From the NCBI GenBank assembly GCA_003214815.1, contig QCLE01000001.1:124001-188000 (forward strand): 64,000 nt of DNA, given 5' to 3'. The notes under the pieces are model-generated. The model was given only the letters and a program-made list of their open reading frames with translations, made no database searches and was not told the origin of the DNA. Source of the stretch: Prochlorococcus sp. AG-412-J13 (lineage in GTDB: Bacteria > Cyanobacteriota > Cyanobacteriia > PCC-6307 > Cyanobiaceae). This document shows positions 23,949 through 60,380 of the stretch, in pieces. Numbering within the stretch: position 1 is the stretch's first letter; the number at the start of each line of letters is the position of its first letter. Position numbers and translations under genes: made by a program.

Positions 23949-24058
23949 TTTTTGTATCGCAGACTACCTAAGGTAGTTAGAAAGGAATGCTACTAGCCTG
24001 CAAACCAATAGCAAAAACATTTTGATATGTATTCTACACTTTAAGATGCTGAATTTTA

Positions 24059-59869: not shown

Positions 59870-60074
59870 GATTATGAACTTTCTGATATTGATAAAAGAA
59901 TAATAGAAGTGATGTTTGCTCTATTAATCAGAATAAGTAAGAATTATATACTTTAATTTTTTATATTTATCTATAAAAAACAAAGAATCATTAAAATCAT
60001 CTTACAAATTAAGAAAAAAGTAAATCAGCATATTTACGGATTTACTGAAAATATAAAAAGGAGTAATTTATAAA

Positions 60075-60380
60075 TGTTGAGTTCGGAGGCAATCTAAATG
60101 ATTGATAGTCCGCCTGAAATTTAGCAAATTCCAAAATATAGGAAGCGTATTCCTGAGAATGGGATTATTCGAAAATTAAAGTTCAATCAATTAGTCTGAT
60201 AAGACTGCGCTTTATAATTACTAGCGACAATAGGGACTGAAATTATCGAGAGAAATCCCCTAATTCACGTATTCTAGGTTTATGAGTAAATAGGCTTTAA
60301 AATATGTAATTTTATATCCTGTAAGAAGGAAATGAGATATTAAAAAAGGGCTGTTTTTACAGTCCTTTTTATTTTTGCAA
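60075..60380 (+). ncRNA. Candidate structured non-coding RNA ending at an intrinsic terminator
   Basis: No substantial ORF; chain of short perfect hairpins; locally higher GC than flanks; terminator AAAGGGCTGTTTTTACAGTCCTTTTT. Confidence 0.45.
60343..60371 (+). terminator. Intrinsic terminator
   Basis: AAAGGGCTGT-TTTT-ACAGTCCTTT stem (one GU) followed by T-rich tract. Confidence 0.75.

Follow-up and report, generated by a model that had tools for sequence, protein, structure and literature searches.

Since 2008 there has been no explanation for the small RNAs Yfr8, Yfr11 and Yfr16. In MED4, Yfr8 (339952..340241, forward) and its antisense partner Yfr9 (complement(339887..340176)) were mapped by microarray, Northern blot and 5'RACE, with RNA species of 290, 220 and 180 nt for each of them, and were described as non-coding save for a toxin peptide proposed to be encoded by Yfr9 (Steglich et al. 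2008, PMC2518516). The reported half-lives are 19.7 min for Yfr8 and 6.9 min for Yfr9, and early in phage infection Yfr9 is reported to rise with Yfr8 staying constant. A further RNA, Yfr103, is 290-328 nt long, occurs as seven paralogs in Synechococcus CC9605, has a palindrome at -29..-58 and is distributed over low-light Prochlorococcus and Synechococcus with no high-light strain listed, and it too was described as non-coding (Hou et al. 2016, PMC5069720). It is reported to be the most abundant picocyanobacterial transcript, with no function known; in a sea sample it reportedly accounted for more than half of the 5'-end reads of Synechococcus CC9605, and it is reported as the top ncRNA in MIT9313.

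The window considered here is a stretch of 64,000 nt from Prochlorococcus sp. AG-412-J13. Within it a preliminary description had singled out 60075-60380, upstream of pip, as a block with no substantial ORF and with GC above its flanks, ending at a strong intrinsic terminator and, by its look, specifying a discrete plus-strand sRNA. This was well seen: GC is 0.31-0.35 in the block and 0.17-0.28 just outside, no ORF of at least 60 aa lies over it, a strong stem with a U-run stands at about 60343-60370, and the RNA envisaged, of about 290 nt, corresponds to that detected by Northern blot and 5'RACE in MED4 (PMC2518516). As judged from sequence, the block is the Yfr8/Yfr9 locus, and the sRNA is thus already known. 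An Rfam covariance search finds RF02360 (Yfr8/9) at 60076-60301 with 257.8 bits (E=2e-64), the gathering cut-off being 40 bits. In genome G015 the RF02360 match is at exactly 339952-340177, and since these coordinates coincide with the 5'RACE end at 339952 and with the MED4 map of the pair, 60076 is taken as the Yfr8 5' end on the plus strand and approximately 60300 as the Yfr9 5' end on the minus strand, with an overlap of 225 nt. By this homology the 5' end, the length of about 290 nt, the terminator, the -10 box and the terminator of Yfr9 are all present, and the locus has the same RNA, antisense partner, strand and downstream neighbour as its MED4 counterpart. Passed over in the preliminary description were the minus-strand antisense RNA and an 8-codon ORF behind GGAGG. 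The features referred to below are as follows.

60011..60300, minus strand: the known antisense RNA Yfr9, placed by homology to MED4 complement(339887..340176)
60020..60045, no strand assigned: imperfect palindrome GTAAATCAGCATATTTACGGATTTAC, candidate promoter element, conserved, at -56..-31 of Yfr8
60064..60069, plus strand: predicted Yfr8 -10 box TAATTT (TANNTT in every near and divergent copy tested)
60076..60371, plus strand: Yfr8 transcript, known sRNA (5' end by MED4 homology, RF02360, conserved terminator)
60076..60125, plus strand: 5' hairpin enclosing the Shine-Dalgarno sequence, start codon and micro-ORF (minimum-energy fold)
60085..60089, plus strand: Shine-Dalgarno sequence GGAGG, retained in Yfr8 copies
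60098..60124, plus strand: putative micro-ORF ATG ATT GAT AGT CCG CCT GAA ATT TAG, MIDSPPEI*, frame kept
60161..60259, plus strand: core three-way-junction domain (separate folds per clade, covariation, G-U bias)
60343..60370, plus strand: Yfr8 intrinsic terminator (sequence; compensatory changes, kept in all clades)

A Yfr8 match is present in 210 of the 266 genomes of the genus, including 78 of the 87 that are near-complete (at least 90% complete) and lacking from the other 9, and outside the genus the Rfam search gave no RF02360 match elsewhere in the family. Divergent copies occur in a few genomes, and four have a further paralog. Across the genus, tests of conservation, covariation and the terminator all agree with a structured sRNA. 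The short hairpins from which structure had been surmised are all there as sequence, namely TTC..AGGC (60082-60090) with GCCTGAA (60112-60118), the enclosed CAATC-TAAAT-GATTG, AATTT-AGC-AAATT, AGGAA-GCGTA-TTCCT, AGTCT-GATA-AGACT and GGGA...TCCC. Comparison upholds CAATC/GATTG, AGTCT-GATA-AGACT, GGGA/TCCC and the terminator but not AATTT-AGC-AAATT or AGGAA-GCGTA-TTCCT, because these two lie in or against the 21 nt at 60125-60145, which are missing from the divergent clade; the AATTT pairs instead with the Yfr8 5' end (GUUGAGUU/AAUUUAGC).

When the central domain was folded separately for each representative, with pairs then counted in a structure-anchored manner, near-clade sequences, divergent copies and paralogs independently gave one plus-strand architecture: a long basal stem GGGAN..NUCCC with two hairpins, AGUCU-GAUA-AGACU and UCGCU-N11-AGCGA, though in a few sequences the minimum-energy fold replaces one inner hairpin. 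The fifth basal pair is U-A or A-U in the main set and C-G in the paralogs, and the second hairpin has a C-G to U-A change. The plus-strand structure is paired in 92.2% of cells and has 66 two-sided changes compared with 21.6 in shuffles (reached by 0 of 500), its covariation score being 0.123 as against 0.039-0.056 when slid. RF02360 itself is oriented along the antisense (Yfr9) strand, and its minus-strand structure, paired in 84.0% of cells with 22 two-sided changes, has no covariation beyond shuffles (0.078 versus 0.075, reached by 70 of 500). Selection acting on the plus strand should give an excess of G-U over A-C, and the wobble cells of the plus-strand helices contain 65 G-U and 4 A-C, a count leaning somewhat to that strand since the pairs came from plus-strand folds. 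Whole-RNA minimum energies are -81 kcal/mol for Yfr8 and -51 kcal/mol for Yfr9. On these comparative grounds the conserved fold lies on the Yfr8 strand, with the Rfam model built on its antisense. Covariance model R1 of the core domain finds Yfr8-type matches and none in the related RNA families described below.

What of the ORF? Its frame is kept across the Yfr8 loci read, 8-11 nt beyond GGAGG, with peptides MIDSPPEI, MIESPPEI, MIENPPEI and MIDDPPEI. The residue at codon 4 is not fixed (S, N, D, R or I), a single copy reads MIDSSPEI and one copy (L107) starts with GTG by an A-to-G change. In Yfr8 by itself this makes a weak case, since the ORF lies within a hairpin, whose pairing can account in part for the conservation of the Shine-Dalgarno sequence, of CCNCC and of the stop. 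No mention of MIDSPPE was found in the literature searched. The sequences nevertheless suggest a conserved micro-ORF in Yfr8 and its relatives that had been overlooked.

The relatives come to light when the palindrome upstream of Yfr8 is used as query in its own genome. Further loci found there have ATG ATC GAT AGT CCA CCA GAG.. and ATG ATT GAC AGT CCA CCA GAG.., and in all that genome has four GGAGG..MIDSPPE loci differing in synonymous codons. The pattern is matched in 83 of the 87 near-complete genomes of the genus, with the same pattern read backwards, as control, having zero matches in the own genome and in all others searched. Two extra MED4 matches fall within Yfr11 and Yfr16, the Yfr11 family being confirmed by Rfam. 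These RNAs (RF02363) are like Yfr8 in having the upstream palindrome, a transcription start 8-9 nt before GGAGG and the micro-ORF MIDSPPE, and differ in being 138-149 nt long, in their 3' part and terminator, in the absence of the Yfr8 core fold and in a peptide tail ..NLMRLV/KFIRLV. One Yfr11-type locus of the own genome (L140; C7, 1658-2605) adjoins a tyrosine-recombinase-like gene, hinting at association with a mobile element or island. A fourth, unnamed high-light RNA with MIDSPPEELDYKI is common in the genus, many of whose genomes have roughly one copy each (L142/L218; C34 in the own genome), and is without an Rfam match.

Outside the genus, low-light Prochlorococcus-like genera have loci with MIDTPPEYQIEAN. 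A DNA query from one of them has relatives in 52 of the family's 59 genera, many genomes having more than one, with weak matches (E ~3e-4) in the window's own genus; the peptides at its loci include MTADTPPEQHQEAS, MDDTPPEDF, MEDTPPEQLKGAN and MSVDTPPEYPPEVI. All 50 low-light and Synechococcus-like loci fetched with this query, and anchored on a motif 3' of the ORF, have a Shine-Dalgarno sequence, a start and [D/E]xPP[E/Q], a set not wholly free of ascertainment since the query contained the micro-ORF. The multicopy M..DTPPE loci are probably Yfr103. That identity is drawn from the published description: the likeness is in length (~290-328 nt), copy number, palindrome position and occurrence where Yfr8 does not occur, and the difference is that Yfr103 was described as non-coding.

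The ORFs are very short, of 8-14 codons, which speaks against a coding role; in the peptides the core D[S/T]PPE is fixed and the tail varies freely. Over all families mean entropies by codon position are 0.11/0.00/1.14, ranking 1 of 495 arrangements (the free codon 2 left out), and a Shine-Dalgarno sequence is followed by M..D[S/T]PPE with coding-type codon variation. Because the codons vary mainly at third positions, these 'ncRNAs', Yfr8, Yfr11, Yfr16 and relatives, probably have a conserved ORF encoding a putative micropeptide or pausing the ribosome. In having a small ORF close to the 5' end of a regulatory-type RNA, they recall dual-function sRNAs such as SgrS/SgrT and S. aureus RNAIII, from which the present RNAs differ in a far shorter peptide with a five-residue fixed core and a free tail, and in forming a multicopy family with one promoter element.

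That element accompanies the ORF. Yfr8, Yfr11/16, the unnamed high-light RNA and the low-light and Synechococcus-like loci all have GCAT about 57 nt 5' of the Shine-Dalgarno sequence, in the form ..AATCAGCAT....AC.GAT.. or GCAATGGGCATTAAGGCTGATTGC, and in Yfr8 and its relatives alike the palindrome stands at a fixed spacing from that sequence; some low-light copies also have the leader GTTGAGTT in common with Yfr8. The palindrome does not have the spacing of NtcA or HLR1/RpaB sites. In near clades it doubles, together with the A-run at 60014-60019, as the terminator of Yfr9 on the minus strand; of 9 divergent copies 5 have no Yfr9 U-run any more, and the palindrome stays. As the Yfr8 core fold is missing from the other families, it is a 5' module alone that they share and on which the superfamily rests. 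In the own genome one palindrome copy (L138; C23, contig end) has a terminator-like end without the micro-ORF and stands 8.6 kb from an intact copy.

Could Yfr8 be purely a non-coding structured sRNA, with its micro-ORF arising merely from the pairing of the 5' hairpin? In favour of this, helices 1-3 hardly vary, being paired in 90-100% of cells, codon 4 is free and the complement of GGAGG is CCNCC, whose free N is a third codon position. Pairing, however, leaves unexplained why the Asp and Glu codons vary synonymously, why every family has a start in frame, why the A-to-G change in L107 yields another start codon, why two genera with AGAGG in place of GGAGG retain the ORF, and why the same peptide recurs in RNAs without the Yfr8 structure. 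We regard this reading as unlikely, though the most credible of the alternatives, and the RNA which the preliminary description rightly recognized is probably not purely non-coding. Quite another proposal would make the block a 5' leader or attenuator of pip (proline iminopeptidase) that senses translation of proline codons, in keeping with the Pro-Pro of the micro-ORF, with a terminator between the RNA and a pip gene on the same strand, and with a distance, approximately +370 nt, that is constant in about 80 loci. However, pip is downstream in the near clade only, so Yfr8 stands as a unit of its own; divergent copies are followed by different genes, in opposite orientation, with promoter, RNA, terminator and micro-ORF kept, and paralogous RNAs occur at other places without pip. 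With no conserved linkage to a downstream gene, a pip leader is very improbable.

The antisense overlap, differential stability and induction of Yfr9 in early phage infection speak for the 2008 idea that the two RNAs are a type I toxin-antitoxin system whose toxin is a peptide encoded by Yfr9, but a conserved toxin ORF was not found. Of the 108 near copies just 34 have the 40-aa frame of MED4 at a length of at least 35 aa; it is absent at the corresponding place in 9 of 9 divergent copies and in the window stops after four codons, and the Yfr9 -10 and U-tract are not retained in much of the divergent clade. This we reject, considering it just as improbable as the pip leader. A reversed pair, with Yfr8 as the stable toxin-type mRNA (for MIDSPPEI) and Yfr9 as labile antisense antitoxin, would suit the relative half-lives and a Shine-Dalgarno sequence buried in a hairpin; against it are a charged peptide of 8 aa that is not hydrophobic, homologous families with no known antisense partner and the missing Yfr9 features of deep copies. 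Its chances seem slight, if marginally above those of the original version. Phage origin is rejected as well: a phage collection gave short chance pieces only, and where viral contigs match the MIDSPPE/DTPPE pattern they do so in unrelated proteins or in frames that lack the promoter element and, for the most part, a start.

We think it quite likely, then, that Yfr8 of the Yfr8/Yfr9 locus is an independent RNA of about 290 nt that combines the micro-ORF module of a superfamily at its 5' end with a Yfr8-specific three-way junction and an intrinsic terminator at its 3' end. The 5' module would comprise the upstream palindrome, the -10 box, a leader GUUGAG.., GGAGG and the micro-ORF MIDSPPEI*, and by it Yfr11, Yfr16, the unnamed high-light RNA and the low-light/Synechococcus-like multicopy RNAs (probably Yfr103) would be counted as members. 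Transcribed from its own promoter, Yfr8 may load a ribosome at the hairpin-embedded GGAGG and AUG which, in translating a few codons, would open the 5' hairpin and protect the RNA. Ribosomes stall at Pro-Pro, with relief by EF-P, which is the basis for expecting slowing at Pro-Pro-Glu near a start. The D-S-P-P-E core could accordingly be a micropeptide, or an early Pro-Pro pause that holds the ribosome near the 5' end; a free tail with a fixed core is equally compatible with a short motif at the N terminus and with a site of pausing. The folded 3' domain may be an effector at the RNA level, and Yfr9, being complementary to the Shine-Dalgarno sequence, ORF and fold, might on rising pair with Yfr8 and silence it.

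More tentatively, and with rather less than even expectation, Yfr8, Yfr11, Yfr16 and probably Yfr103, counted among the most plentiful supposedly non-coding RNAs of marine picocyanobacteria, may be one family of micro-mRNAs, each joined to an RNA domain particular to its lineage, in which a strong Shine-Dalgarno sequence and D[S/T]PPE load a ribosome and park it at the 5' end, or make a micropeptide, so setting or sensing translational capacity under light, redox and phage stress. New here are the strand assignment, the rejection of the pip leader and Yfr9 toxin, and the shared micro-ORF joining Yfr8, Yfr11, Yfr16 and probably Yfr103. This assigns the conserved structure of Yfr8 to the correct strand and removes the basis for a toxin peptide in Yfr9, and a common promoter element with a D[S/T]PPE micro-ORF would unite the four RNAs. 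Is it the peptide or the paused ribosome that is important? A shared micro-ORF would allow this to be tested directly.

Several observations at or near such loci may be put on record. Among deep-branching genomes, G079 has two Yfr8 copies (L125/L126) 12.5 kb apart, and others have a diverged paralog (L070-L073). In that paralog the ORF is of 24-26 aa (MVFNPPENPRKDYLLKEKPRMGLR) and the core fold is the same. Just 5' of the palindrome, at 60000-60019 of the window, is a GGATCATTAAAATCCTC-like sequence conserved in many near copies, and elsewhere in the window a cyanobacterial ribosomal protein S1 leader (RF03151) is present on the minus strand at 23956-24032.
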